Below, in pieces: positions 4,101-34,430 of a stretch of 51,941 nucleotides of DNA; the first letter of the stretch is position 1; each line of letters opens with the position of its first letter. The notes beneath the pieces were generated by a model that was given only the letters and a program-made list of their open reading frames with translations, had not been told where the DNA came from and ran no database searches. The DNA is from Thermoplasmata archaeon (GTDB lineage: Archaea > Thermoplasmatota > Thermoplasmata > Thermoplasmatales > Thermoplasmataceae). The stretch is taken from assembly GCA_021792655.1 (NCBI GenBank), contig JAJYUG010000003.1, forward strand, positions 1-51,941, read 5' to 3'. The position numbers and the translations under genes were made by a program.

Positions 4101-4642
4101 ATCTGAGTCTTTGAAAGGGCAGAAATCTTCTTCCCGTTTTCCGGTAGCTTTCCGGTGAGCTGATAGGTTCTGTACTCATAGAGAGCGTCTATGATCCCTA
4201 CATGGCTGGCAACTCTCCTGAACATCTGCCTGGGCGTTTCTATTATCTTCCCTTCCTCGTCCTTGAGAAGGTACCTGGCCTCAAGCACCTTGATTGCGTT
4301 TATTGACAGTTTAAGGTCATCTTTTACACCTATGGATGCCTTCTCGTCGCGGATGATTCTCCTCCTTTCCCTGTACAGTATGTAGGCCTTTGCCACTTCC
4401 ACAAACGACTGGTCATTGCTTGAGTATCCCATGAGGGCACTTTCTACCTTGTCCTGTATCTGTTCCACCGTTGGTTTCTGAGTTATTTTTGAAATTTCAC
4501 TTACTGCTCTCTTTGCTACTTCTTCGGCATCCTTCATTGTGCCTACTTTGACTGAAAGCATTGCCTTGTATATTGCCCTGATAATCTTCCCTTCGTCGAA
4601 GGAAGCCTCCGTCCCATCTCTTTTGATAATAGTCTTAATCAT
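1193..4642 (-). CDS. nrdJ: adenosylcobalamin-dependent (class II) ribonucleoside-diphosphate reductase with intein
   Basis: N-terminal ATP-cone, [42 protein letters not shown], and C-terminal ACPTGKCDK motifs. Confidence 0.95.
2240..3340 (-). mobile_element. In-frame intein (367 aa) with LAGLIDADG homing endonuclease domain inserted in NrdJ
   Basis: Begins [10 protein letters not shown] after ATNP, ends GNGLVVHN before [14 protein letters not shown] and [11 protein letters not shown] dodecapeptide motifs. Confidence 0.93.
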
Positions 4643-11684: not shown

Positions 11685-12296
11685 ATGAACTCAAAGGACA
11701 GGGGGATGACCCTGGCGAATTCGTTCAAGAACCCGACAAAACTGGAAATTGTAACTGTACTCATTCAGAAAGGAAAGATGACCGTAACACAGATGTCGAG
11801 AATTATAGGAACGACAAAATCGAATCTCTACCAGGCAATAGCGGAACTCGTATCAGATGGCCTGGTGAATCCCCCTGAAGTGAAGGTTACAAAGAATTAT
11901 GTGGAAAAGTTCTACACCATAAACGAGCAGGCTTTTTCGGAGGTATCTGCGGAAGAATGGAAAGAAAGGATGTTGTCACTCAGCACAGATGACCTGAGGG
12001 ATCTTGTTGTCTCTTTTCTCCTCACCCAGTCCGTGATAATGAAGATAATGGCGGAGGAGTTCAACATGTCGGGTGATCCAGCAATGGAGAACTTCAGGGA
12101 GATTTTCAAACGCGGTTTCCTTTTTCTTTCCTATTCGAAACTTTCCAACGATTCGTATATCAAGGCCGCATCTATTTTGAAGACCGTTGAAAGCACACTC
12201 AGTGAATCGGAAAAGCAAGACAGCACGAAGAACCCAAAGAACATGCTGCTTATCGTTGGTATTCCCTCCCTGGACATTCTAAGGTTTATGAAATAA
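11685..12296 (+). CDS. winged-helix (ArsR/MarR-like) transcriptional regulator
   Basis: FKNPTKLEIVTVLIQKGKMTVTQMSRIIGTTKSNLYQAIAELVSDGLV wHTH; divergent from MFS gene. Confidence 0.75.
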   Translation: MNSKDRGMTLANSFKNPTKLEIVTVLIQKGKMTVTQMSRIIGTTKSNLYQAIAELVSDGLVNPPEVKVTKNYVEKFYTINEQAFSEVSAEEWKERMLSLSTDDLRDLVVSFLLTQSVIMKIMAEEFNMSGDPAMENFREIFKRGFLFLSYSKLSNDSYIKAASILKTVESTLSESEKQDSTKNPKNMLLIVGIPSLDILRFMK

Positions 12297-12349: not shown

Positions 12350-13615
12350 TCAACCAGAGTTTCCTGTCGCCATTTTTTTAGCACTTGCCTTGTCCTTTAT
12401 TCTCATTATGTTGAAGAAGAAAAGGAATATAGCTATCATCAGGACATATACCGAGGAATAGGCCATTACATTGCCAGCTTCGCTTTGCTTTGATATCAGG
12501 TCTCCTCCAACGCGCAAGAAAACAGCAAGATTCAGCGCGTATATGGGTGATTTGGTGACTCTTGTGGTATCGACTTTCAATTTAAGTGTTAACGGGAAGA
12601 TAATTGGGCTATGCGCTATTATGAATAACCCGATAAAGCCGATGGCAATTGAGTGTGTTGCAGGGTCCATGAACCCGCTTTCCACGTTCATCTGTACCAG
12701 ATAAAGCGCGATTCCAACTAGTAGCCATGCATATGAGGAAATAATGCTGAATTGCATGAATGACTGGAGTTTTCCTGGACTCCTAAGTTTCCTTGTTGTA
12801 GGATCATACCTTATCGAAGTTAACACCAAGATTAAGAGGAATATTTCTGAGCTATCAAAAAGTAGCCGGTCTATGAGCATGTAGTGCCCCAGCGTTGCGA
12901 AAAACAATAAAACCGGGATCATTATTGAAGAAAAGACAAGAATACCCATTGTGACTTTTCCAATGCTCCGTATTTGTCCGAGTTCGATGCGTTCACCGAG
13001 AATATATATGATCGGAAACGACAGGAGAAGAAAGGCTACAATAGGGGATTCAATTGCTGAAGTTATAGATTCAGCGATTGAAGAAAACGACAACGCCACC
13101 AATGCAGAACCCATGATCAATTTAACTCCAAAGTTTCCAGGATTCCGCAGGGAAACCATAAACCACGTGAGAAGAAGGCCGGTAATTGCAATTAAAACAG
13201 AGCCAGTATATCTCAAAATAGCGTATTCAGAGGCATATCCTATAGAAAGGAGAAGAATACCTGGCAACATAATTACTATTATAAGATAAGAAATAGGGAG
13301 CCTCTTAAAGATAAGAAACTTGTTCATTATTTCAATTTTTTCCGCAATAAGAAGACCACCAATAACGCCGAAAACCATTAGAACGGGATGTACAGATATG
13401 TATGTTCCCAGAATGCTATTCGAGAAAAAACGATCCTGTTCTCCTAGTTTCGCCATGCCAATTGAGAAACCGATAACTAAAAACGAAATGGATGCGACGA
13501 GATAGAATAGAGTTAATTTCGAACGATTTACTGATAAAACTTGAGTCAATTGGTCACCTGCTGTAAGTAGTTGTGATCCCCTTTTCCTCTGGGCCTCTCT
13601 TGGGTCTAAATCCAA
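12350..13615 (-). CDS. NnrS-like polytopic membrane protein (large partner)
   Basis: About 12 TM; HPVLMVFGVIGGLLIAEK and THSIAIGFIGLFIIAHSPIIFPLTL resemble NnrS helices. A TTG start near 13549 would remove the overlap with the neighbour. Confidence 0.5.
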   Translation of the reverse strand: MDLDPREAQRKRGSQLLTAGDQLTQVLSVNRSKLTLFYLVASISFLVIGFSIGMAKLGEQDRFFSNSILGTYISVHPVLMVFGVIGGLLIAEKIEIMNKFLIFKRLPISYLIIVIMLPGILLLSIGYASEYAILRYTGSVLIAITGLLLTWFMVSLRNPGNFGVKLIMGSALVALSFSSIAESITSAIESPIVAFLLLSFPIIYILGERIELGQIRSIGKVTMGILVFSSIMIPVLLFFATLGHYMLIDRLLFDSSEIFLLILVLTSIRYDPTTRKLRSPGKLQSFMQFSIISSYAWLLVGIALYLVQMNVESGFMDPATHSIAIGFIGLFIIAHSPIIFPLTLKLKVDTTRVTKSPIYALNLAVFLRVGGDLISKQSEAGNVMAYSSVYVLMIAIFLFFFNIMRIKDKASAKKMATGNSG

Positions 13616-13988
13616 CCGTCATCAAGTTATAAGTATGTATTACCATGGACAGAAGTAGAGCCAAAACTGCCGGAGCGAACAATATTTTCAGCTGATAGAC
13701 ATTCATCGCCACTCCGAGTAATATAATCGCAATATTCAGAAGACTTATTTCTATTTTTATTGTGTTCACATTAAATGGTATTCGCCTAGCATATGATGGT
13801 ACCATTATGTTTGTGACTCCGAATATCATGGAAGTAACGAAACCAAACAGCCAGATAAGCGAAATGCTTTCAGATGTCACTGGTATTTCGAATACGCCCC
13901 TTAACAGAAATAACGTGGTACCGGCAAGAAGATAAATAAAAGCCTGACCAAAATACCTCATGTTTATCGAAATATACTCGTTATCCAT
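13554..13988 (-). CDS. small 4-TM membrane protein, possibly NnrS-like partner
   Basis: WLFGFVTSMIFGVTNIMVPSYARR; overlaps/abuts the 12350..13615 gene on the same strand. Confidence 0.5.
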   Translation of the reverse strand: MDNEYISINMRYFGQAFIYLLAGTTLFLLRGVFEIPVTSESISLIWLFGFVTSMIFGVTNIMVPSYARRIPFNVNTIKIEISLLNIAIILLGVAMNVYQLKILFAPAVLALLLSMVIHTYNLMTVGFRPKRGPEEKGITTTYSR

Positions 13989-14049: not shown

Positions 14050-14065
14050 CCCTAATTTTTTAGGG
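14050..14065. promoter_or_regulatory. Palindrome site A: CCCTAA-TTTT-TTAGGG
   Basis: Perfect 6-4-6 inverted repeat, 62 nt upstream of ORF 13554..13988. Confidence 0.6.
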
Positions 14066-14239: not shown

Positions 14240-14722
14240 ATGGACACAAAGAGATTTAAAAGACTGAATTACACCGCAATTTCTCCTGATCTGTATAAAG
14301 CACTTTCTGGATTAGAAATGTATGTGCATTCCTCGAAACTAGAAGATCCGCTTCTCGAACTCATCAAACTGAGAGCTTCGCAGATAAATCAATGCGGATG
14401 GTGCATTGATATGCACACAAAGGACGCTTTGATAAATGGTGAATCATCCCAGAGGCTGTTTCTTGTCAGTTCTTGGAGAGATGCACCACAGTTCAGCCAA
14501 AGAGAGAAACTAGCTCTGGAGTGGTGTGAAGCCATAACAAATATATCAAAGAGTGATATCGATGATGTCTTATACCAGAAAATGTTAAATGAATTCGGAG
14601 AAAAGGAACTTGTTGCTTTGACGGCATCAGTCGTCGCCATCAATGCTTGGAATCGTTTTAACATAGCATTCCGAGCAATCCCCGGAACCTACGAGCCAAA
14701 GAACGATACAATAAAGAAATGA
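14240..14722 (+). CDS. AhpD-like carboxymuconolactone decarboxylase family protein
   Basis: LLELIKLRASQINQCGWCIDMHTKDA CxxC motif of the AhpD/CMD family. Confidence 0.88.
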   Translation: MDTKRFKRLNYTAISPDLYKALSGLEMYVHSSKLEDPLLELIKLRASQINQCGWCIDMHTKDALINGESSQRLFLVSSWRDAPQFSQREKLALEWCEAITNISKSDIDDVLYQKMLNEFGEKELVALTASVVAINAWNRFNIAFRAIPGTYEPKNDTIKK

Positions 14723-14766: not shown

Positions 14767-15414
14767 TCAAGCGTATTTTCCCGATGCGAGTTTTCGTTCA
14801 ACCTCTTCGTGATCTCCTTCGCTGGGAAATGGGACCACTATATGGAGGCCTTCGATATCGGTAGTCGCTTTTATTCCTCTTTTCTTCCCTCGTGGAACTA
14901 TTATTAAGCTACCGGGTTTCAACATAACTTCTGTCTCGTCAACAGTGGCGGTTCCCGTACCTTTGAAAACATGGAAAATCAAGTCAACATCTGGGGAGTG
15001 AACTGGTATAAACTGACCAGCTTTAATATAGGTGACAAGCACACCATACTTATCGTTTGAAAACACCGGGACTGCAGTAAACCTGCGCTCATTATAGGAT
15101 CTGCTTCTGTCATAGTCCGTGATAATAACAGATTCGCCCTTATCATTTTCCGCGGATTTGACGAAATGACCAACCCAAACCCCATCCTTGCGCTGTTCTG
15201 CATAGTATTTTTCAATATTCACAGGTAGACCGACATGTTCCATTTGCATGAGAAGGTGATCGGGTTCATGATCCACGACTACATCCAGAGTCTCTCCTTC
15301 ATTCAATTTTTTAAACTCATTAAAAATAGTTTCATGTCTGATTCGCTGGTCTAGCTTTCTGGCATCGATGGTTCTTCTTTCCTGACTTTCTACAGTCATA
15401 TGTTTCGAATCCAA
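14767..15414 (-). CDS. DUF2249-cupin fusion protein
   Basis: N-term TIDARKLDQRIRHETIFNEFKKLNEGETLDVVVDHEPDHLLMQM (DUF2249-like) then cupin HSPDVDLIFHVFKGTGTATVDETEVMLKPGSLIIVPRG. ATG at 15399 is the likelier start than TTG at 15414. Confidence 0.75.
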   Translation of the reverse strand: MDSKHMTVESQERRTIDARKLDQRIRHETIFNEFKKLNEGETLDVVVDHEPDHLLMQMEHVGLPVNIEKYYAEQRKDGVWVGHFVKSAENDKGESVIITDYDRSRSYNERRFTAVPVFSNDKYGVLVTYIKAGQFIPVHSPDVDLIFHVFKGTGTATVDETEVMLKPGSLIIVPRGKKRGIKATTDIEGLHIVVPFPSEGDHEEVERKLASGKYA

Positions 15415-15433: not shown

Positions 15434-15449
15434 CCCTAAGTATTTAGGC
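15434..15449. promoter_or_regulatory. Palindrome site B: CCCTAA-GTAT-TTAGGC
   Basis: 35 nt upstream of ATG 15399 of the DUF2249-cupin gene. Confidence 0.65.
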
Positions 15450-15570: not shown

Positions 15571-17259
15571 TCATTGCTTTAATTCTACCTCTGGTTTGTA
15601 TCCAATTCTCTCCTTCACACCAGCTACGATATATCCCTTGGCCTGATCAAAACTGATTTTCGGAGGTACAGGTTTCGCGTTCTGATCTACTAAGGCCTCT
15701 AGGAGAAATGGTCCCTGGCTTTTCAGCATAGCGTCTACTGCCGCTTCAATTTCGACATCGTTGGCGATCCTTTGTGTGTCTATTCCATAAGCGGAAGCCA
15801 ATGACGAGAATTCTGGGTTGACAAGATCGACTCCCCACTGTGGGTAACCCATCACTTCCTGTTCGAATTTGATCATTGCCAATTTACTGTTGTTGAAAAC
15901 CACAATCTTAACCGGTATGTTGTATTTCTTAATTGTGGCAAGTTCCATTATTGTCATGGTCATTCCTCCATCTCCGACGATAGAAATCACCTGTCTATCT
16001 GTTGATAATGAAACACCAATCCCCCCAGGCAATGAACACCCCATGGAAGCCAGACCACCAGAGAAGAGAAATCTCTGTCCCGATCTCGCTCCAAAGTGAC
16101 GAGCTATCCAGACTGTTGTATTTCCGGTGTCCCCAACGATTACAGCATTGGGATCAGCTTTTTGAGAGATTACCCTCGCTAGTCTAGCAGGATTAATGAA
16201 TCCGTAATTTCTGGATTCTAATTCCTGTAGTTCCCGGTTCCATGATTTTATCTCTGAAGCAAATTGTAACCCGAACTTTTTCTTCTTTTCCGAGACGCTT
16301 TTTATGATTGAGGTCAGGAACGTGTGAGAATCCGACAGAACAGCAAAATCGACAGGAAATTCTCTTCCGATGTTGCCACCATCTATATCCACCTGGATAA
16401 TCTTCGCTTTTTCTGAAATGAATCGCTGATATGGATAAGTAGTACCGATTGCGATAATCAGATCAGTTTTGGCCATTGCTTCCATGGATGGCTTTGATCC
16501 TAGAAGACCAAGAGCACCCAGAACTCTTGGATTATCGTCTGAAAAGATTCCCTTGCCAAGCAACGCATATATAATCGGAGCACCTATTTTCTCGGATAGA
16601 TCTGTTATCCATTGCTGCTCGTTAATCGAGCCAGAGCCGACAAGCAATACCGGAGATTTGCTTTCATCTATTGCTTTTGAGATTTCCGAAAGGTCTGGAT
16701 TGAAAACTGGAATCGGACTATACGTGCTCAAAGTCTTTGGAACCTCTATGTTCTCGGTAAGTATGTCGACAGGTATGTCGAGATGTGCTACACCGCTATT
16801 TCTTTTCGATTCCCTGATAGCCCTGGAAATCAGATACGGTGCGGATTTCGCCTCGACTACTATTCTGTTAAAAATGCTCACGTCATCAAACAGTTTAGTC
16901 ATGTTGACTTCCTGATGGTAATCGTGACCTATCATCTCCATGCCCACCTGACCGGTGATCGCTATGACAGGAGCCTTGTCCATTTTAGCATCGTATAAAC
17001 CGTTTAACAGATGTATAGAGCCGGGACCGGAAGTCCCAAAACATGCCGCCGGGCTCCTATTCAGTTTTGCGTCAAAGGAGGCAGCAAAGGCTCCTCCTTC
17101 CTCGTGTCTAACCTGGATGTACTTAAGTGAACCTTTTTTCCTGATAGCTTCCACGAGTGGATCAATAGAATCGCCTGGAACTCCGTATATTCTGCGCACA
17201 CCTCCATCAACTAAATAATCTACAATGATTTCTGCTACTGACTTTTGCATCATTATCAC
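15571..17259 (-). CDS. poxB: thiamine-diphosphate enzyme, pyruvate oxidase / pyruvate:quinone oxidoreductase type
   Basis: YGVPGDSIDPLVEAI, VRHEEGGAFAASFDAKLNRSPAACFGTSGPG, GDGGMTMTIMELATIKKYNIPVKIVVFNN (ThDP motif). Confidence 0.8.
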   Translation of the reverse strand: MIMMQKSVAEIIVDYLVDGGVRRIYGVPGDSIDPLVEAIRKKGSLKYIQVRHEEGGAFAASFDAKLNRSPAACFGTSGPGSIHLLNGLYDAKMDKAPVIAITGQVGMEMIGHDYHQEVNMTKLFDDVSIFNRIVVEAKSAPYLISRAIRESKRNSGVAHLDIPVDILTENIEVPKTLSTYSPIPVFNPDLSEISKAIDESKSPVLLVGSGSINEQQWITDLSEKIGAPIIYALLGKGIFSDDNPRVLGALGLLGSKPSMEAMAKTDLIIAIGTTYPYQRFISEKAKIIQVDIDGGNIGREFPVDFAVLSDSHTFLTSIIKSVSEKKKKFGLQFASEIKSWNRELQELESRNYGFINPARLARVISQKADPNAVIVGDTGNTTVWIARHFGARSGQRFLFSGGLASMGCSLPGGIGVSLSTDRQVISIVGDGGMTMTIMELATIKKYNIPVKIVVFNNSKLAMIKFEQEVMGYPQWGVDLVNPEFSSLASAYGIDTQRIANDVEIEAAVDAMLKSQGPFLLEALVDQNAKPVPPKISFDQAKGYIVAGVKERIGYKPEVELKQ

Positions 17260-17294: not shown

Positions 17295-17310
17295 CCCTTT
17301 GTTTTTAGGG
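17295..17310. promoter_or_regulatory. Palindrome site C (degenerate): CCCTTT-GTTT-TTAGGG
   Basis: 36 nt upstream of the GTG start (17259) of poxB. Confidence 0.5.
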
Positions 17311-17479: not shown

Positions 17480-18115
17480 ATGATCTCTTTGATAGAAGCT
17501 GAACTGGAATTTGAATCACCCATGAACTGGATCAAATCAATAGTAAAAAAACATTCAGCTATGATTAAGATCAGAGATATACGCAGAAGCGAGGAAGGCG
17601 TTAAAGACCTTGTTGATTTTTTTGTTCCTCTTAATACTGCCGATGGTTCACAGAAGGAAATCTTTAAGCTCGTTGGAAATCAAAATAACAGCATGGTCAT
17701 GATCGACGATAACCACACAACTGCTATTGTTGATGCAGACAAATGTGCTATATGTAAAACGATGCTGAACTGGGACCTATTTCTCATAGAGGCACACACG
17801 AATGGTGTAGGTGACATTATCATGCGTTTGCTTGCGCCAGATGAAGAAACAGTGTCAGGGTTTCTCGGTAGGCTTGAAGCTGATGGTGTCAAATTTAAAT
17901 TAATTAAAAAGCATAACCTGAACAAGAAAAAAGAAATAACCGCCAGACAGGAATTCGTGGTAAGAACTGCTCTCGATCTTGGATTTTTCGATTATCCGAA
18001 AAAAGTTAACTTAGAAGGACTCTCAAAGCGATTGAACGTTTCCTATGTTACTCTGGCCGAAATCTTGAGACGGGCGGAGAAAAATATAATATCCTTATAC
18101 TTGAAGAAAAACTAG
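17480..18115 (+). CDS. HTH-10 (bacterio-opsin activator/NarO-like) transcriptional regulator with CxxC
   Basis: C-terminal TARQEFVVRTALDLGFFDYPKKVNLEGLSKRLNVSYVTLAEILRRAEKNII is an HTH-10 domain; KCAICKTML Cys pair in the sensor part. Confidence 0.85.
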   Translation: MISLIEAELEFESPMNWIKSIVKKHSAMIKIRDIRRSEEGVKDLVDFFVPLNTADGSQKEIFKLVGNQNNSMVMIDDNHTTAIVDADKCAICKTMLNWDLFLIEAHTNGVGDIIMRLLAPDEETVSGFLGRLEADGVKFKLIKKHNLNKKKEITARQEFVVRTALDLGFFDYPKKVNLEGLSKRLNVSYVTLAEILRRAEKNIISLYLKKN

Positions 18116-18176: not shown

Positions 18177-18635
18177 TTATACTTTGATCGCAGCATCCGT
18201 TTGAGAACGGATAAGATCACTTGCGGCTAAAGCGGCGGGGTATAAGACCTCTTCTTCCAGTGAAATATGGTGTATCAGTTCGTCGGCTATACCACTGATT
18301 TCATCGCTTGAAAAAGAACTGAATTGTTTTCTCGCATGGTCGACGACGTTAACCATGGACCTGTGTTCCTCCAGCATTTCTCCGTAATTTTCCCTAAAAT
18401 TATTGCTGGCGTCGATAAACTCCTTGCTTTCACTTCCGACTGATTCGCTTGTCCTGCCCTTAAGGAACTTTAACAAAGGTACCACAGACACGTTTTCGCG
18501 TTCCATATGGCATTTGAAAGAACAGAGTATATCGGAGAACGCGCTTCCCAATGGATTTTCTTCCTTAGAAACGCTTTCCAGTTTCCTGACCAGTTCCTCA
18601 TGCTCTTCATCCAATAACGACCTACTATCTGTCAT
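18177..18635 (-). CDS. hemerythrin (HHE cation-binding) domain protein
   Basis: DEEHEELVRKL, HMERENVSVVPLL, EEHRSMV, HHISLEEEVLYPAAL pattern. Confidence 0.85.
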   Translation of the reverse strand: MTDSRSLLDEEHEELVRKLESVSKEENPLGSAFSDILCSFKCHMERENVSVVPLLKFLKGRTSESVGSESKEFIDASNNFRENYGEMLEEHRSMVNVVDHARKQFSSFSSDEISGIADELIHHISLEEEVLYPAALAASDLIRSQTDAAIKV

Positions 18636-18669: not shown

Positions 18670-18685
18670 CCCGAAAAGTTTAGGG
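18670..18685. promoter_or_regulatory. Palindrome site D: CCCGAA-AAGT-TTAGGG
   Basis: 35 nt upstream of the hemerythrin ATG at 18635. Confidence 0.65.
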
Positions 18686-19166: not shown

Positions 19167-19325
19167 ATGGACGGATTTAACTCCAGACTATAACATTTAT
19201 TATTTAGACACTTATCTTTATGGATTCGCATGTCTGTCGAGAATCTTTGTGAGTGGCCGATCCTGAACTTTTTGCCGTTGAATGCCCAAACAGTTTCGGC
19301 TTAACATAAACCACCCATCTGTATT

Positions 19326-19451
19326 CTATTTATCCTGTTTAACAGAGATATCGGCAAACGCAGGCGATTCCCATTCCCATACATCGGCGAGATAATCGTC
19401 GAGTCCGAATGATGAATTTATTTTGGAAACATCCGTAGTTTTGTCTCTCAT
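19326..19451 (-). CDS. 41-aa small ORF (MRDKTTDVSKINSSFGLDDYLADVWEWESPAFADISVKQDK)
   Basis: Manual translation; ATG to TAG, acidic, GAAGGATAAGG just upstream; isolated in a gene-poor gap. Confidence 0.3.
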   Translation of the reverse strand: MRDKTTDVSKINSSFGLDDYLADVWEWESPAFADISVKQDK

Positions 19452-20086
19452 CCTTATCCTTCTCTCGTTAACCAGTACAAAACAACTATTGAAAGTTACC
19501 CACAAATTATTAGGGGATATAAAAATAATCCAGCGCCATTTTAACGCGATCGTTTGGCCTCATGGTTTACAATTGACAAGGTTAGGCAATCCCTGGGCAA
19601 ATTTGGTATATAGTAAAGGAGAGTTCTCTTGTGAAACCTTGCCTAGATATAGACGATAGAAGGTGATGAGAAGCAATGTCAATCCCCAGTGGAAACTTGG
19701 AGTCAAATAGTTTCAAGTTTGATCCATATCCCCAGGATGCAAAAATTTTGGGAGAACATCAGAGACACCTTCCCTTGCACTCGTATTAAAGCCAGAAAAA
19801 TCCTGATATCCGTAAAAATGTTCCTAAACGCTGTTAACATGCCTCATGGTATTTTCTTTCCTAATATTCCGTGAATTTTTTCGATGAGTAGCCACCAATA
19901 ACACTGCAAGACAAGCAGATGCACTGCCTCATCAGCACTTCCATATATTACAGGTCAGAATGATCCCGTTGTGATCAGATGTTTTACGTGTGTAAAGGAT
20001 TTCTTGAGGGTTGTTTTTTTGATTTCCAGTCCATACATATCTATGGAGACGGGCCATCTTCAACCCATTCCTGATTGAGAAAAAGA

Positions 20087-21409: not shown

Positions 21410-21952
21410 TCATTGACTAGCTGTTTTAGCGAGTGCGCTCCCCGCAGAGTTAAAGGTTCCGGAAAGGATATGCTCGGCAGCCTGGCAGGCTATCTTAAGT
21501 GAGGCTTTCTCAAGTTTTTCGTGTGCTTCAACACTCCGCCATAATCTTTCTCCTCTATAATTTCCTGTTTCCTTCGAGAGCTCTAACATCCTGTGCGCAG
21601 CAATTCTTGTGCTTTCATGTTCCTCTTCCATGTCTTTATATTCCATCGAAAATTCCTCTGCAATTCTCTTAAGCTGATCCTTATTATTCATGAACGCATA
21701 AGACTCCTCTGTTATGTAATTGAGAAGTGGCACAACCAATTCCTCTTCCTTCGCTACATGATCCGCAAAAATAGATTGAAATTCGAGAAAACTCGGTGCC
21801 GAATCCGGTCCCTTGTTGTCGTAAATCGTCTCGAACTTCCAGTTCTTATGATTTGATACATTTTCCATTCTGATCATCAAAGTTAGTAATGCGCGTGTGC
21901 CCTTATCATTAATCCCGAAGGATTTAGGGCTAGAGTGAAAACCCATAGACAA
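21410..21952 (-). CDS. hemerythrin-like HHE domain protein (start probably 21877 or 21868)
   Basis: FADHVAKEEELVVPLLNYI, EEEHESTRIAAHRML; palindrome site E lies inside the annotated N-terminus, favouring a downstream start. Confidence 0.75.
   Translation of the reverse strand: MSMGFHSSPKSFGINDKGTRALLTLMIRMENVSNHKNWKFETIYDNKGPDSAPSFLEFQSIFADHVAKEEELVVPLLNYITEESYAFMNNKDQLKRIAEEFSMEYKDMEEEHESTRIAAHRMLELSKETGNYRGERLWRSVEAHEKLEKASLKIACQAAEHILSGTFNSAGSALAKTASQ
21914..21929. promoter_or_regulatory. Palindrome site E: CCCGAA-GGAT-TTAGGG
   Basis: 37 nt upstream of ATG 21877. Confidence 0.6.
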
Positions 21953-22058: not shown

Positions 22059-22496
22059 CTATCCGGTTCCCTCTATTCTGGTCTCTAAATGCTCTAAGAC
22101 CTCAATCTCTTCCTTGGAATGAATTTTCAGTATATTTAACATAGTGTGGCTTAACATACTTATCTGATGGTAATCCATTGTTGATCTAACTAATACTGTT
22201 TCCTCAAATGTAAGTTTCCTTAGCAGATCGTGATCTCTTGATAATCGTTGAAGAATACCGTTAATTCCTGGATCGGCTTTGAGAAGATCCCTATATAAGC
22301 CATCTTCCTCTTCTTGTGCATGGGCCAAGACTTTATCATTCCACAGACTTTCCAGGGTCTCTGTAGCCATTTTGTTTATAGCCTCCGTGTTAGAATCGTG
22401 GGCATCCAGTATTGCAAGTGCCTCCTCTATTTCGCCCTGGACAGCGTAGTGAATCATTTTGTGCGATTCTTTTTTTCTTAGCGCCGGACCGGACAT
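22059..22496 (-). CDS. hemerythrin-like HHE domain protein, last gene of nar operon
   Basis: VLAHAQEEEDGLYRDLL, SRDHDLLRKL, IHSKEEIEVLEHLE; 18 nt after the TDT gene. Confidence 0.75.
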   Translation of the reverse strand: MSGPALRKKESHKMIHYAVQGEIEEALAILDAHDSNTEAINKMATETLESLWNDKVLAHAQEEEDGLYRDLLKADPGINGILQRLSRDHDLLRKLTFEETVLVRSTMDYHQISMLSHTMLNILKIHSKEEIEVLEHLETRIEGTG

Positions 22497-22514
22497 ATTT
22501 TTCCTCCACTTTTA

Positions 22515-23603
22515 TCAACTTACGGAATCGTTCCTCACTGTATTTTCCTCACTCAAACGATCACCCGAAACAACACTGTGGATCAGACCGATGAATTCAT
22601 AGAGCCAGGCTGCAATTGCAATATAAATAAATAACTCCGGAATCACAAGGAATGCCTTGAAACCCGAAGCTTTTGCAAGAAAGTAGGTGGAGACAGTATA
22701 CATCCCCATGGGGAATACGCCTCCCCAGAAAAGAGGATCATAATTCAGCAGGCTTTCTCTTCCCTTCGTATACTTCAATATGCCTACGATAAGAAGCCAT
22801 GGTATCCACCAGCTTCCATACGCCCACATGAGGAGAGCAGAGCCTAACAGAAATTGCCTCAAGATATCGGATTGAGATGCGAAACCCGATGCGTTACCAT
22901 TTAAAAATATTAATACTCCAGCCAATGTCGTGATAGCCGTTGCTCCCATATTGATCCAATATGGCCCGGTAAGATCATTTGTGTTAAGCTTCATGAATAG
23001 AAGCCTGTAATTAATGAGGGACATCACTAATACGTATGTTAACCAGCCAATCATATAGAAAACGAGCGAGAATATATACATCCAGCTGTGGATAGGAGAC
23101 AATTGGGCTGCAAGAACTGCTACCGACTGAGTGGAGACAATCGCTATTAGCCACGCACCATTTATACCATTCTCCAATGATGGTTTATTTTTACTCAGAG
23201 AAAGGGAGACGAAAATAAAATACTGATAAAAGAACCAAAGTATTAAACCGAATAACCACAAGTCAAATGCTGCCGTGTAGTTCTTTTCCACTACAAAAAA
23301 TACGGAACCTAGCGTATTGGTTCCCGCAATTACAGTAAAGAACCCAGGAGCGCGGGAATGATCCTCCAGATCCCTTAGATAATATCCACTATACACAATT
23401 ACCCTGTAAATAGAAAGGATCCAGAGTACAATGTAACCTATGAAATCCACATAGAACAGGAATTGTGAAAGTATGTATATGCTGTAAATATAAGCTGCAA
23501 TTGAAACGATTCCAGTAGCCATGACCATTGCAAAATATGCAGGTAAAAGGTTTTTTGCTGTGTTATCCCATCTCATAGAGATTGTGGCCACGAAGTGGTT
23601 CAT
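22515..23603 (-). CDS. TDT/SLAC1 (TehA-like) family transporter/anion channel
   Basis: LLPAYFAMVMATGIVSIAAY and GINGAWLIAIVSTQSVAVLAAQL; overlaps narI stop by ATGA. Confidence 0.85.
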   Translation of the reverse strand: MNHFVATISMRWDNTAKNLLPAYFAMVMATGIVSIAAYIYSIYILSQFLFYVDFIGYIVLWILSIYRVIVYSGYYLRDLEDHSRAPGFFTVIAGTNTLGSVFFVVEKNYTAAFDLWLFGLILWFFYQYFIFVSLSLSKNKPSLENGINGAWLIAIVSTQSVAVLAAQLSPIHSWMYIFSLVFYMIGWLTYVLVMSLINYRLLFMKLNTNDLTGPYWINMGATAITTLAGVLIFLNGNASGFASQSDILRQFLLGSALLMWAYGSWWIPWLLIVGILKYTKGRESLLNYDPLFWGGVFPMGMYTVSTYFLAKASGFKAFLVIPELFIYIAIAAWLYEFIGLIHSVVSGDRLSEENTVRNDSVS

Positions 23604-24337
23604 CTTATCTCCTGTGACTTTATATCCTGTGAAATGCCATCTTCACTTCCAAATTTTCTGAACAGAATCGGCTTCCGGAAAAGATATCTAACAGGCGTAG
23701 TAAATATATGAACCAGTCTAGTAAACGGAATAGATGGGTACAAGAGGAATGAAACCAATATATGAATTTTGAATATCAAGGGCACATTGTTCATCAAAGA
23801 CGCATTTGGCTGGAACGTAAAAAAGCCAGTCATCCATTGACCCACATTGGCCATGACTGCATTATAAGCGGCTGATCCGTTGATTACGTCATAACCAAGC
23901 GGAAGTGTTAGCCCCAGTGACATTATAACTAGAAGCAGGAATAGCACGTAGGTATCTCCAAGGCTTGAATTTACGCGCACTCTTTTCACAAAGACCCTCC
24001 TACCAATCAGAATTGCAAGCCCTATCCATGCCATAATTCCAAAGATCGCTCCGAGAACGACTGAGGCAATAAAATTCATATAATCCGAAACACCGAACCT
24101 ATTAAGTAGCTGGATAGGAACAAAAAGGCCTGCGAAATGCCCAAGAATAACAAATATAAGCCCATAATGAAAGAATCTCGCGCCCCACTGTAGGCGTTCT
24201 TTTTCAAACAACTCACTTGACTTCGACGTGATGCTAAGTGGTTTAAATCTGAACCTGTAGACGATTCCAATTATCATAACGGCAAACGAGAGATATGGAT
24301 AAATTACCCATTCCAGCTGATCTATATAGCTCATCAA
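23600..24337 (-). CDS. narI: respiratory nitrate reductase gamma subunit
   Basis: Five-TM b-type subunit, RFFHYGLIFVILGHFAGLFVP, HILVSFLLYPSIPFTRLVHIFTTPVRYLFRKP; located after narJ. Confidence 0.93.
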   Translation of the reverse strand: MMSYIDQLEWVIYPYLSFAVMIIGIVYRFRFKPLSITSKSSELFEKERLQWGARFFHYGLIFVILGHFAGLFVPIQLLNRFGVSDYMNFIASVVLGAIFGIMAWIGLAILIGRRVFVKRVRVNSSLGDTYVLFLLLVIMSLGLTLPLGYDVINGSAAYNAVMANVGQWMTGFFTFQPNASLMNNVPLIFKIHILVSFLLYPSIPFTRLVHIFTTPVRYLFRKPILFRKFGSEDGISQDIKSQEIR

Positions 24338-24918
24338 TACTCCCCCCCATCATATTTCATCGGGAACGGCAGTTCCCCTGTATCTACATCACCCGGAATT
24401 ATCTCCCTTACATGTCCAGATTCTTCCAATACCCTGCCAAGGAGCGCGAATATATTACGATACATATCCGAATTAACCTTATCGACCGTTTTTGAAAAAT
24501 ATCTGTGGAGTCGCGTTTCAATATCTGCTGGTACTTCTCCGGGATCAAGGGAAGACATGAATTCCAAAAGAATTGGTATATAGTCAGGTGTTTCTTTACC
24601 GATAATCTTAAAATGTTTTTCTTCGATCATTTGTTTGATTTCAATCAACGCGTTTCCTCTCTCCCTGCTGTCTCCATACTCAAATGCTGTCAGGTAAAGA
24701 TATGAGCTTCCCGCCATTTCGAAGCACCTTACGTACTCCATCTGAATGTCCAGAATATCTCTAGACTTCACGTATTCCAGAAAGTCCACTGTTTCGCTTT
24801 CGATCATCTCTCCTGTTCGTGGCGATATTGATTCAATGTAAAGACCGGTTGAATCGTATTCCGGATAATCCAGAATCTTGGAAGCAATGCTCAGTGTAGG
24901 CCTTGACTCGGCTTTCAG
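24334..24918 (-). CDS. narJ: nitrate reductase molybdenum cofactor assembly chaperone (NarJ), extended upstream to a probable CTG start
   Basis: ATG ORF is 24334..24807; in-frame upstream codons encode LKAESRPTLSIASKILDYPEYDSTGLYIESISPRTGE, matching the usual NarJ N-terminus. No ATG/GTG/TTG lies between the upstream stop and 24807. Confidence 0.8.
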   Translation of the reverse strand: MKAESRPTLSIASKILDYPEYDSTGLYIESISPRTGEMIESETVDFLEYVKSRDILDIQMEYVRCFEMAGSSYLYLTAFEYGDSRERGNALIEIKQMIEEKHFKIIGKETPDYIPILLEFMSSLDPGEVPADIETRLHRYFSKTVDKVNSDMYRNIFALLGRVLEESGHVREIIPGDVDTGELPFPMKYDGGEY

Positions 24919-26408
24919 TATGTACCACCCCTTTTAAGTTTTGGCTGAACGATTCCTTCTGGCGGAGCAATACCCTCAAGGCTGCATGCTCCTTGAAGGT
25001 AAGAAGCATCGGCTGCGTTATCTCTCCTAGCTGTCGGAATCACGAAGCGATCCTCGTATTTTGCAACTCCAAAGAGTCTGGCCATGTCCGTAACCTCCTG
25101 TTCGTCCATACCTGATTCATTGAGAAGTTTTGAATTTCCTGGCTCCCCGAGACCGATCGATCTCATATAAGATCGCATGGCACTCATTTTAAGCAGAACC
25201 TTCCTAATGACCCGGGTGTCCCCAGCGGAAAGGATCGAAGCGAGATATTCCATAGGTATTCTCATGGAATCCACAAGTGAGACATAGTCCTCGGCTGCAA
25301 ATTCATCCTCATTACTGACATTGCTCAATATGGGACTCAAAGGCGGGACATACCAAACCATTGGGAGTGTCCTGAACTCAGGGTGTAGCGGAAGTGCTAC
25401 TTTCCACTTTATAGCCATTTTATAGACGGGAGATGCCTGTGCCGCTTCAATCCATGCGTCATTTATTCCTTCCTCGTGCGCTAGCCTAATAACCTCTGGG
25501 TCAAAAGGGTCAAGGAAGATAGAAAGCTGACTCTCGTACAGTTTCTTCGGGTCTTGTACTGCAGCAGCCGACTCTATCCTATCCGCATCATACAGAATCG
25601 GTCCCAGATAGCGAATACGTCCTACGCAGGTCTCTGAACATACCGTTGGGAGACCAGCTTCAATGCGTGGATAACAAAAGGTGCATTTCTCTGATTTATG
25701 GGTATTCCAGTTAAAGTAAACCTTCTTGTACGGACATGCAGAGACACAGAATCTCCATCCCCTGCATGATTCTTCGTCCACAAGCACGATCCCGTCTTCG
25801 TCTCTCTTATATATGGCACCCGCCGGGCAAGCGGCTACACAAGCAGGGTTTAAGCAGTGTTCACATATACGCGGAAGATAAATCATGAAGGCTTTCTCAT
25901 ATTCAAAGGCGATCGCGTTCTCCAAATTTTCCAGGTTTGGGTCCATGGAGGATGTTTGACTTCCTCCTGCAAGATCGTCATTCCAGTTTGGTCCCCATTT
26001 TGGTTTATCTATCATGTCACCAGTAATTGCCGAATAGGGCCGGGCTACAGGTTGATGCTCTTTCTTACCGCTTTCCAACAAGTTATTGAATGTATAATCC
26101 CAAGGCTCATAATAGTCATCGATATTTGGAAGATCCGGGTTATAGAATATGTTCAGAAGTTTCTGGAGAGGACCTCCAGATCGCAGGCGCAGTTTGTTCT
26201 TGTGCAGCACCCAGCCGCCATTATACCGATCTTGATCTTCCCATCTTGTCGGATACCCCGGGCCAGGTCTACTTTCCACATTGTTAAACCACATGTATTC
26301 AGTTCCGGGGCGGTTTGTCCAAACATTCTTGCAAGTTACACTGCAGGTGTGGCAGCCTATACACTTGTCGAGATTCATGACCATTGCTATTTGTGACTTA
26401 ACTTTCAA
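24915..26408 (-). CDS. narH: respiratory nitrate reductase beta subunit (4 Fe-S clusters)
   Basis: DKCIGCHTCSVTCKNVWTNRPGTEYMWFNNVE, RICEHCLNPACVAACPAGAIYKRDEDGIVLVDEESCRGWRFCVSACPYKK. Confidence 0.97.
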   Translation of the reverse strand: MKVKSQIAMVMNLDKCIGCHTCSVTCKNVWTNRPGTEYMWFNNVESRPGPGYPTRWEDQDRYNGGWVLHKNKLRLRSGGPLQKLLNIFYNPDLPNIDDYYEPWDYTFNNLLESGKKEHQPVARPYSAITGDMIDKPKWGPNWNDDLAGGSQTSSMDPNLENLENAIAFEYEKAFMIYLPRICEHCLNPACVAACPAGAIYKRDEDGIVLVDEESCRGWRFCVSACPYKKVYFNWNTHKSEKCTFCYPRIEAGLPTVCSETCVGRIRYLGPILYDADRIESAAAVQDPKKLYESQLSIFLDPFDPEVIRLAHEEGINDAWIEAAQASPVYKMAIKWKVALPLHPEFRTLPMVWYVPPLSPILSNVSNEDEFAAEDYVSLVDSMRIPMEYLASILSAGDTRVIRKVLLKMSAMRSYMRSIGLGEPGNSKLLNESGMDEQEVTDMARLFGVAKYEDRFVIPTARRDNAADASYLQGACSLEGIAPPEGIVQPKLKRGGTY

Positions 26409-29400
26409 GCCAATTCACCTTCGTAAGTTTCCTGATAAATGCAGTTGCATCTCTCTGATGCCCTGTTGGTCCATAATAATTAAAAAAGAACGACAGCTGA
26501 GCGTATCCACCAATCATGTGGGTCGGCTTCAGGATTATTTTTGTCACGCTGTTGTGGGTTCCGCCCCTATCATCTGTGATTTCACTACCGGGAGTGCCCA
26601 CTGTGCGATCCTGCGCATGATACATTATTGCGTCTCCCCTTGAAATTCTGTATGTAAGCACCGCCCTGGCAACCACAACGCCATTCATGTTATATACCTC
26701 CACCCAGTCATTGTCCTTCACATCTATCTCCTTCGCGTCCTCCTCATTAATCCATACGCACTGGCCCCCCCGGAAAAGAGTCAACATAATCGGGGTATCC
26801 GCATAGGTCGAGTGTATTCCCCACTTTTGGTGCGGTGTTAGATACCTAACTGTCAGGTGCTTTCCTGAAGCAAATTTTGAGCCGTCACCTTCTTGGGTAT
26901 AGAACGCCGGGCCCAGAGGCGGCTTATGGATTGGCAGGCATTCCGCCATTTCAATCATTAACTGGTGATCCAAATAGAACGATTGTCTTCCTGTTAGCGT
27001 TCTCCACGGAATGGAATAATCAACGTTTATGGTAAAAGGCGAATACCTCCTACCGTTTTCTTCGTTTCCACTCCAGGAGGGTGCAGCTATTGCCCTTCGC
27101 GGCTGTATCACTAGATCGTCAAAGCTATAGTCCGTGTCGGCATTTCCTAAAAACTCTTTTGAAAGTGAAACCCCAGTCTTTTTGGAAAGGAATTCCCATT
27201 CCTCCTGCGATCTCTTTCCATTCGTTGCGCCGGATAAGGCAAGTATTGCATCCACAACATGCCGCTCATCAAGAAGCGATGGAAAACCAAATGCTATACC
27301 AGGTTTGTCGTAGGCAGGTAGTTTCTCGAGTAAATTGGAATAAGCCTTCTCGCCGTCGATTGTAATTCCCTTGGCAGTGATTCTCTTTTTTTCCAAAGGT
27401 CCTAGTGTAACCATTTTGTCAAAGACATGAGCAAAATCACGCCTCAGAATAGATACCTTTGGAAAATTTTTTCCTGCAATAGGCATCTCTCCGGTCTCTA
27501 GCCAGTCATCAATGACTCCCATTGGCTGAGCCATTTCGTCCAATGAATCGTGCTGCATCGAGTTCAGCATAAGGTCCTCCGCTTCTGGAAGTTCCTTTTC
27601 AGCTAGGTCTGAGAATTTTCTGGCTATGATTTTAAATGTTTCCCAGTCGGACTTAGCTTGCCATGGGGGAGAAATCGCGGCACTGAAGGGATGCACAAAT
27701 GGATGCATGTCAGTGCTGCTCACATCGTATTTCTCGTACCATGTAGCAGCAGGAAGAACAATATCAGAATAAAGGGCAGAACTGGCCATCCTAAAATCAA
27801 TATCAACCATCAAGTCTAACTTTCCCTCAGGTATAGGATCCGGAACCCTGACCTCATTTGGCTTCCAGCTATCGTTATGGTCTCCGAGGGGGTGGCCGCT
27901 TGATCCGAGTAAATGTTTTATGAAATACTCATGTCCTTTCCCGCTTGCACCAAGCAAATTCGATCTCCAGAGAAATAAAACTCTAGGGAAATTCAATGGA
28001 TTATCCGGGTCCTCTGTAGAAAACTTCAGTTCCCCCTTCATGAACTTGTCGGCCAGGAATTTCCCTGCATCAACATCCGTCTCACATTTTGCATCCCTTA
28101 TCTCTTTTGCAAGTTCAACAGGGTTTCTGTTTGTCTGTGGATAGCTTGACTGCCAACCTAGTCTTACCGCCATAGAAAGTAAATCTGCGGGATGTTTCCC
28201 GGAATACTTGCCCTTGAATGGGGTCATTTGTGAGGAATCGTATTTTTGTTCATATCTGAACTGATCTGTGGCAAGATAGAAAAACGATGTCCCATTCTGA
28301 AGTCTTGCATTTGGGTACCAGTCTAGCGCAAAAGCAATGTTACTCCACCCTTCAAATGGCCTGACCTTTTCCTGCCCGACGTAATGTGCCCACCCACCAC
28401 CATTAACTCCCTGGCTGCCTGTAAGCATAACCAGGCTGATGATGCTTCTGTAAATAACGTCGCTATTATACCAGTGGTTAGTTCCCGCCCCCATAGCGAT
28501 CATGGATTTTCCCTTGGTCTTCGCTGCATTTTCCGCAAATTCCCTTGCAACTTTAATGGCGAGTTTCCTATCAACTCCAGTTATCTTTTCTTGCCATGCC
28601 GGTGTATACGCGGAATCTGATTCATAATCTTTTGGATACTCTCCATCCATACCTCTTGGCACACCGAGGCTAGCAGCGAAAAGGTCGAAAACTGTAACTA
28701 CTGATGCGGTTTTACCGGATGAGAGTTTAAGCTTCTTCACCGGAACTTCCCTTTTTGATATTTTTGTTCCAGAACTATCGAACTGGGGAAATTGAACTAA
28801 TTCACGGCCGTCTTCTATATCTAAAAAGGAAAGCACTGGATCAACATAATCACCATCAGTACTTTTTAGATCTAGATTCCATCTTGACGAACCATCCCAT
28901 CGAAATCCTAGGCTACCGCCCGGAACAATAGGTACTTGTGCATTTCCGTCCCACATAACGGTTTTCCATTCCGAATATTTTTCTGAATTGCCCAGATCGC
29001 TTGACCTGAGGAACCTGCCTGATTTGTACGAATCCCCATCTTTGTCAAGTATCACCAGAAACGGGAGATCGGTGAATTTTTTGGCGTATTTCGTGAAGTA
29101 TGGTTCTTCCCTTTCAACGTAGAACTCCTTAACGATAACATGCGCCATCGATAAAGCTAGAGCCGCGTCTGTACCAGCTTTTGCAGGTAACCATACATCA
29201 CTGAACTTTATGTATTCAGCATAGTCAGGGCTCACACCAACAACCTTAGTGCCATTGTACCTAGCTTCGACCATAAAATGTGCGTCCGGAGTTCTTGTCT
29301 GTGGAAGGTTAGTACCCCAAATGATGAAGTACTTTGCATTGTACCAATCTGCACTTTCAGGTACATCAGTCTGTTCTCCCCAGATTTGTGGAGATGCGGG

Positions 29401-30111
29401 AGGTAGGTCGGCGTACCAGTCATAAAAACTGAGCATGCTGCCTCCTATCAGCGAAAGAAATCTCGATCCTGCAGAGTAACTCACCATCGACATCGCTGGG
29501 ATAGGAGTGAAGCCCATCACTCGATCCGGTCCGAATTTTTTAATGGTTGAGATTAGAGAAGCGGCTATAATTTCCGAAACTTCCTCCCACGTGCTTCTGA
29601 CGAATCCACCCTTACCGCGTTCCTTAACATATTTGTCTTTGTATTCTGAATTTCCGGAGATTTTTTCCCACGCCGTGACTGGGTTTCCTGTCTCTTTTCT
29701 TAATTCCCTCCATAGTTTCATCAGTGTTCCTCTAATGTAAGGATACTTCACTCTCATTGGACTGTAGGTGTACCAAGAAAAAGTAGCCCCTCTTGGACAT
29801 CCCCTGGGCTCATATTCCGGAAAATCCTTTCCGTTGGATGGGTAATCAGTCTGCTGGGTTTCCCATGTTATTATTCCGTCCTTTACATATACCTGCCAAC
29901 TGCACGAACCTGTACAGTTCACTCCGTGAGTAGATCTCACTATCTTAGTATGATCCCATCTGGATCTATACATATTTTCCCAAGCACGGCTTCTTCCATC
30001 ATACTGTAACCATTTGTTTGTTAGATTATTATATTCCACAGTTTTATTCTTGCTTTCTTGTTCGGTCATTTTTGTCTGTTCCTCCGATGGGATCGAATTT
30101 ATTTCCAACAA
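26398..30111 (-). CDS. narG: respiratory nitrate reductase alpha subunit; likely start MTEQESK at 30069
   Basis: [70 protein letters not shown]; 1237 aa. Confidence 0.97.
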   Translation of the reverse strand: [1237 protein letters not shown]

Positions 30112-30499
30112 TTTTGAAAGTTGCCGAATCAGTCAACTCGAAAAGGAAATCCTCAAATGAGTTAACATTCGCAGCTACGAGTATCAGCCTGTTAATCTTG
30201 TTGAAATCTTTTATCTCAAAAATCTTTTCCTCAACATTGCGTTCGATGTTTCCGAATCTAGTTCGCAGTACATACAAAAGGTCTTCAACATCGGAATCTT
30301 CATCTGAAGATTCTTTCATGTATTGAACAATAACCGACGGTATTAGACTATTTTCAGATAGTCGCATGCCTGTCCAGCATATGTTATTCGCACAGTGGGA
30401 ACTGCCATCGACGACATTGCCGATGGACTCATTTTTCCGAAGATTTGGGTCCAAGTCATGCGGCCTTTTCAAACGAGCACTGCTAGAAACCTCTAACAC
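30044..30499 (-). CDS. uncharacterised protein with DUF4351-like C-terminal segment, first gene of nar operon (GTG start)
   Basis: DLLYVLRTRFGNIERNVEEKIFEIKDFNKINRLILVAANVNSFEDFLFEL resembles DUF4351; stop overlaps the narG start. Confidence 0.5.
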   Translation of the reverse strand: MLEVSSSARLKRPHDLDPNLRKNESIGNVVDGSSHCANNICWTGMRLSENSLIPSVIVQYMKESSDEDSDVEDLLYVLRTRFGNIERNVEEKIFEIKDFNKINRLILVAANVNSFEDFLFELTDSATFKIVGNKFDPIGGTDKNDRTRKQE

Positions 30500-30533: not shown

Positions 30534-30549
30534 CCCTAAATACTTAGGT
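30534..30549. promoter_or_regulatory. Palindrome site F: CCCTAA-ATAC-TTAGGT
   Basis: 35 nt upstream of the GTG start (30499) of the first nar operon gene. Confidence 0.65.
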
Positions 30550-34345: not shown

Positions 34346-34430
34346 TGTGTTTTATCTCCTATTCATTCCAAGTACCTATTTAGAGCTTGCAGAACACTCC
34401 TGGACAGAATGTAAAAGTTAATATACTCGG

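Follow-up and report, generated by a model that had tools for sequence, protein, structure and literature searches.

Little is known about nitrogen-oxide regulation in archaea beyond the haloarchaea, and our literature search found no published operator for an HTH_10 regulator of the Thermoplasmatales. In Haloferax mediterranei, the motif CGAAYATDKTYG is located upstream of denitrification genes, DUF2249 genes and an HTH_10 gene (PMC10062603, PMC11218638), and point changes in this motif lower the activity of the nos and nor promoters (PMC10062603). DmsR of Halobacterium is a small HTH_10 protein that acts as a positive regulator of an anaerobic respiration operon (PMC1447603), and in the founding HTH_10 system, Bat at bop, an HTH_10 activator is paired with a motif upstream of the co-regulated genes (PMC1502140). 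In bacteria, the NO regulons of NsrR, DNR/NnrR, HcpR and NorR contain nnrS, dnrN/ytfE, hemerythrin-like genes, nar and ndh (PMC1274295).

Here, we examined a stretch of 51,941 nucleotides from a Thermoplasmata archaeon (the window) that encodes an HTH_10 protein, called REG below. We find that REG and its orthologues form a new group within a regulator family that is already known, and the regulon predicted for them is new as well. The outcome is a predicted regulator-operator pair with its promoter geometry and a list of predicted target genes, including the uncharacterised DUF2249-cupin, TM13554 and ORF30044 (Table 1).

Table 1. Regulator, predicted operator copies and neighbouring genes, in window positions
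Feature	Position	Strand	Remarks
NnrS-like membrane protein, conserved partner	12350..13615	-	PF05940, E 4.7e-6, just below cut-off
Small membrane protein TM13554, conserved partner	13554..13988	-	conserved in relatives' neighbourhoods
Operator, exact CCTAA-TTTT-TTAGG	14051..14064	.	centre 69.5 nt before ATG 13988 (minus strand: TM13554 and NnrS-like)
CMD/AhpD-like protein	14240..14722	+	PF02627
DUF2249-cupin protein, conserved partner	14767..15399	-	PF10006 and PF07883
Operator, exact	15435..15448	-	centre 42.5 nt before ATG 15399 of DUF2249-cupin
Pyruvate oxidase-like ThDP enzyme	15571..17259	-	sequence similarity
Degenerate operator, 2 mismatches	17296..17309	-	centre 43.5 nt before GTG 17259, pyruvate oxidase-like gene
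HTH_10 regulator REG	17480..18115	+	two predicted ferredoxin-like sensor domains, CxxC C89/C92, C-terminal HTH_10
Hemerythrin HHE1	18177..18635	-	weak match to FeS-repair RIC/YtfE
Operator, 1 mismatch	18671..18684	-	centre 42.5 nt before ATG 18635 of HHE1
Hemerythrin-like HHE2	21410..21952	-	relatives' homologues overlap HHE1 matches
Operator, 1 mismatch	21915..21928	-	centre 41.5-44.5 nt before in-frame starts of HHE2
Apparent operon ORF30044-narG-narH-narJ-narI-SLAC1/TDT-hemerythrin HHE3	22059..30499	-	Nar subunits named from sequence
Operator, exact	30535..30548	-	centre 42.5 nt before GTG 30499 of ORF30044, first gene of apparent narGHJI operon

The regulator and its sensor region

The HTH_10 domain that a preliminary description had assigned to the 211-residue product was borne out. 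Residues 153-204 match PF04967 with an E value of 5.7e-17 and 61.7 bits, above the curated cut-off of 23.1, and this C-terminal match, which places REG in the family, was the sole Pfam domain found at E values up to 10. By the same search REG is a small HTH_10 protein without PAS or GAF domains and in this respect fits the NarO/DmsR subgroup; we claim membership of the HTH_10 family and not orthology to NarO. The true start of REG may be TTG 17489, nine bases downstream of ATG 17480, because the orthologues begin at that position in the alignment. The source genome (G000, 1.36 Mb) has three HTH_10 genes, REG and two others. The other regulator among the window ORFs scanned with Pfam was an MFS-linked ArsR/MarR-like ORF (11685-12296), and the ORF at 34387 is a PadR-like regulator by the label given to it in the preliminary description.

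The AlphaFold model of REG (11 sequences) has a mean pLDDT of 71, which is moderate confidence, and contains two successive beta-alpha-beta-beta-alpha-beta units, at about residues 4-76 and 79-147, followed by a helical C-terminus. The KCAIC motif is present as described, with C89-x-x-C92 at the first loop/helix of the second unit and invariant in 11 orthologues. Its cysteines are the only two conserved ones in REG, and both are common to nearly all of the compared full-length paralogues. The suggestion that the CxxC points to a sensor of the NarO/DmsR type was not supported. The motif was common to all full-length Thermoplasmatales HTH_10 paralogues with the sensor domain in our comparison, L035 excepted and short sequences left out, and a haloarchaeal HTH_10-like protein encoded beside DUF2249 genes and nirK (L080) has no cysteine at all. 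We therefore rejected the CxxC as a mark of special sensor function, and since nearly all full-length paralogues have it, it cannot alone support nitrate or oxygen sensing.

A Foldseek comparison of the model with the PDB gave no convincing match: the top scorers superpose poorly (rmsd around 13 A), and Ta1207 (5m86) reached a query TM of only 0.48. For this reason we assign REG to no sensor family. A sequence search of the PDB with REG gave no match. We also dropped a copper/HMA-like reading of the CxxC, placed as it is at the first loop of a ferredoxin-like domain, since no HMA domain was among the 50 listed Foldseek matches.

The palindrome and its promoter geometry

The palindrome of the preliminary description is real. 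An exact CCTAA-N4-TTAGG is found at only three places in the 1.36-Mb genome, all of them inside the window together with two one-mismatch copies (Table 1), and when the longer form CCCTAA-N4-TTAGGG is searched with up to one mismatch, five out of five genome-wide copies are found in the island at 14.0 to 30.5 kb of the window. The operator consensus is TCCCTAA-N4-TTAGGGA. Counting the motif with up to three mismatches across the window gave no enrichment, this criterion being too loose; the signal resides in the near-perfect copies. The copy at 14051 is also upstream of the CMD/AhpD-like gene, and its spacing of about 70 nt to the start codon on the other side is repeated in a relative (L087). 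The degenerate copy at 17296 has its centre 177 nt before REG, and the pyruvate oxidase gene that it precedes has better operator copies in two relatives (L050 and L086). At the usual distance from REG itself there is no operator and hence no sign of autoregulation. The true start of HHE2 is downstream of the listed 21952. A stretch of 920 bases (19167-20086) lacks a clear ORF and includes a weak palindrome, CACAAATTATTAGG, at 19501.

The same palindrome came first in an unbiased scan of 52 upstream regions of the relatives' neighbourhood genes, window excluded, that covered all 5-base half-sites and spacers of 0-12 with one mismatch allowed. CCTAA with a spacer of 4 was found in 15 regions versus 0.28 expected from Markov shuffles, a comparison whose p value is optimistic because the sequences are related. 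Ranks 2-5 were register shifts of the same extended palindrome, and no other motif came close. Within the regulator loci there were 33 copies at spacer 4 versus 0-9 at other spacers, a count set against the other spacers since the non-regulator loci include many picked for holding the motif and their density is an unfair background.

At 17 of the 35 sites in regulator loci a start codon follows 41-45 nt from the palindrome centre, ten of them at 42.5, while random positions gave a mean of 1.9 and a maximum of 6 at the same distance. The aligned promoters read TCCCTAA-N4-TTnGGGA followed by a TATA-like element, the best conserved A of which is 25 nt before the start codon in 16 of 17 promoters. 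Since archaeal messages are often leaderless, the operator would be expected to adjoin the BRE, at about -49 to -36. A site directly upstream of the TATA box fits an activator-like geometry.

The strongest alternative is that REG represses from the palindrome, keeping TFB/TBP off the promoter until NO or nitrogen oxides cause its release. Occlusion is conceivable because the 3' half-site TTnGGGA lies immediately beside, or overlaps, the position expected for the BRE. The bacterial NsrR regulon is under repressor control (PMC1274295). However, the site is upstream of the TATA box and not over the transcription start, the known family members DmsR (PMC1447603) and NarO (PMC11218638) are described as activators, and the activity of the nos and nor promoters fell when the comparable motif was mutated in haloarchaea (PMC10062603). 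We consider repression unlikely and activation by REG most likely.

Partner genes, regulator and operator in relatives

The conserved partners of REG are the NnrS-like protein, TM13554, the DUF2249-cupin and the hemerythrins. PF05940 also matches the NnrS-like homologues of two relatives, one just under the cut-off like the window protein and the second with an E value of 4e-5, while TM13554 and HHE2 have no Pfam match. The core content of an NO regulon, NnrS and DnrN/YtfE-like or hemerythrin genes under one operator, is thus found here, with NnrS just below its Pfam cut-off and the hemerythrins weakly RIC-like. The homology of NarG is supported by a sequence search against bacterial NarG. The protein (26398-30111, minus strand) is about 52-54% identical to bacterial NarG, e.g., that of Rhodococcus, which suggests acquisition by transfer from bacteria. 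Among the window genes we noticed neither nirK nor a nor gene. Elsewhere in the window, at 1193-4642 (minus strand), is a ribonucleotide reductase-like ORF, apparently with an intein (CITGDTF...VVHNCGEQP).

Read as mainly a regulator of nitrate respiration, REG would be a nitrate or anaerobiosis regulator like NarO, with the defence genes incidental. It is true that the nar operon has a perfect site at the canonical distance and that the haloarchaeal relatives control denitrification, but NarG was found in only 3 of the 61 genomes searched (own and relatives) versus 11 of 61 with REG or a remnant of it, and the conserved partners are NnrS, DUF2249 and hemerythrins. NarG is also present in G094. 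We regard this reading as improbable. Because the partners are NnrS-like, DUF2249-cupin and hemerythrin proteins and most of the orthologue genomes searched have no NarG, the core regulon most likely serves to protect the cell from NO or related species, and nitrate reductase would have joined it in some lineages.

Clear REG orthologues with 57-71% identity were found in 9 of 60 relatives, along with a pseudogene in G026; G014 has a second copy with 47% identity, and a family-wide search added six further genomes with REG. In the nine relatives with an intact gene, whose genomes are 1.3-2.3 Mb in size, 8 of 12 exact palindromes are no more than 13 kb away from the regulator (binomial p about 9e-13). 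Of the six further genomes and the divergent G074, five have CCCTAA-N4-TTAGGG with 0-1 mismatch on the same contig as REG, 1-11 kb off: about 3 kb in G084, G085 and G089, about 10 kb in G094 and about 1 kb in G074. In G083, CCGAA-N4-TTCGG is 42.5 nt before the hemerythrin gene adjoining REG, and for the G065 orthologue no operator was seen on a contig of only 4.2 kb. Genomes without REG have 0-2 exact palindromes, away from the partner genes in the loci checked. Where the gene has decayed through several stop codons, in G026 (L053, C1:500000-519900), both partner genes and operator are absent around it. In one genome without REG (L088, G034:C3), an NnrS-like gene with stop codons stands beside hemerythrins with no operator, as if the regulon had decayed.

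The DUF2249-cupin follows the regulator as well. Of 77 family genomes, 15 encode it, and in 14 of these the regulator is intact or, in G089, interrupted by a single in-frame stop (Fisher p about 1e-11). In the remaining one (G100), the small contig that encodes the DUF2249-cupin also holds a fragment of the regulator, and a second contig shows perfect palindromes upstream of the pyruvate oxidase gene and close to the homologues of NnrS and ORF30044.

REG-like proteins are found at E values of 1e-25 to 1e-42 in other families and orders of the phylum. The DUF2249/NnrS/hemerythrin cluster was present at 1 of 20 such distant loci (L102, another family, 33% identity), and there a perfect CCCTAA-N4-TTAGGG, CCCTAA-TGCG-TTAGGG, is located 45.5 nt before the DUF2249 start codon. 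At the other 19 the cluster was absent, with at most scattered degenerate copies of the palindrome. At one distant locus (L103), CCGAA-N4-TTCGG directly follows the REG-like gene. A Halobaculum plasmid gene that matched REG was set aside, as its neighbourhood is unrelated.

The comparative evidence thus gives good support to the proposed link between regulator and motif. Across a family of acid-loving archaea and in one more distant lineage, REG goes together with this palindrome, and nearly all relatives checked have the operator next to an intact orthologue. The link withstood the refuting condition set in the preliminary description, a regulator in genomes that lack the motif: each intact orthologue with adequate flanks has an operator nearby, and distant HTH_10 genes without the cluster do not. 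Co-occurrence supports and does not prove binding by REG, as neighbouring genes are inherited together. The palindrome could have another reader, such as either of the two further HTH_10 proteins that the genome encodes, with REG just travelling with the cluster. Related palindromes do occur near HTH_10 paralogues in other genomes (L078 952-965, G085:C78, 58.5 nt before the paralogue's own start; L059 7827, G006:C36; L057/L058), and these paralogues may use the same operator class. However, paralogues occur in most of the family genomes that lack the operator cluster, so that the paralogue distribution does not track the operator while that of REG does, and REG is the only DNA-binding protein seen conserved across the relatives' neighbourhoods. 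We regard another reader as improbable. A further reading, in which a dedicated TFB uses the palindrome as an extended part of the core promoter, could draw on the fixed position of the site beside BRE/TATA. We consider this very unlikely given the dyad symmetry of the palindrome, its reach well upstream of the TATA box, its near-absence elsewhere in the genome and its tracking of one HTH protein.

Predicted regulon and comparison with known systems

Family membership, the operator, its fixed spacing and the co-occurrence of REG, operator and gene set are shown by sequence, and on these grounds REG very probably reads the palindrome TCCCTAA-N4-TTAGGGA. A REG dimer would bind this site, occupying about -49 to -36 of mostly leaderless messages and abutting the BRE/TATA box, and would most likely recruit the basal factors through contact with TBP/TFB. 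The activated regulon would comprise the NnrS-like protein, the DUF2249-cupin, the hemerythrins, the AhpD-like protein and pyruvate oxidase, to which narGHJI would be a later addition in the source genome and a few others. The signal would be NO or another nitrogen oxide, sensed by the N-terminal domains, perhaps with C89/C92. Taken as a whole, we consider this explanation, a dimer that most likely activates a regulon of NO/nitrosative defence, to be likely.

Compared with bacterial NO regulons, the predicted REG regulon has overlapping gene content, but the bacterial regulators and operators are unrelated. REG resembles DmsR as a small HTH_10 protein, whereas the target of DmsR, a DMSO/TMAO reductase, is unlike those predicted for REG. 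The Bat UAS at bop has the form ACC-N7-TTnG and is located just upstream of the TATA box; its spacing of CC and TTnG (CC-N7-TTnG) is one that we take to match the REG operator. Bat differs from REG in having PAS and GAF domains and in its target, bacteriorhodopsin.

A further likeness is to the haloarchaeal denitrification system. Like NarO of Haloferax volcanii, REG is a small protein of the HTH_10 family without PAS or GAF domains, and like the Haloferax motif, its operator is a semi-palindrome with an AA-N4-TT core (CGAA-N4-TTCG in Haloferax) and DUF2249 genes downstream. In contrast to the Haloferax motif, the REG operator has T/A and not G/C at the third half-site position and the host belongs to a different phylum, and in contrast to the NarO/Haloferax system the core set is NnrS/DUF2249/hemerythrin, often without nar. 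On one haloarchaeal plasmid (L080), CCGAA-N4-TTCGG is found near an HTH_10-like gene, DUF2249 genes and nirK, with 8 copies at up to one mismatch versus 1.5 expected; another (L081) has two exact copies, before a cupin gene and ric, a count that is not significant alone. This haloarchaeal palindrome and the REG operator share the same CCnAA-N4-TTnGG architecture. It is possible, and we put it forward tentatively, that CCnAA-N4-TTnGG and HTH_10 together represent an ancient NO-defence regulon of Thermoplasmatota and Halobacteriota, in which REG would be a direct NO sensor, possibly via a metal or thiol at C89/C92 in the second ferredoxin-like domain, and the archaeal counterpart of NsrR/DNR. 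The resemblance of the REG operator, in both sequence and spacing, to the denitrification motif of haloarchaea suggests a single class of operator in two archaeal phyla.
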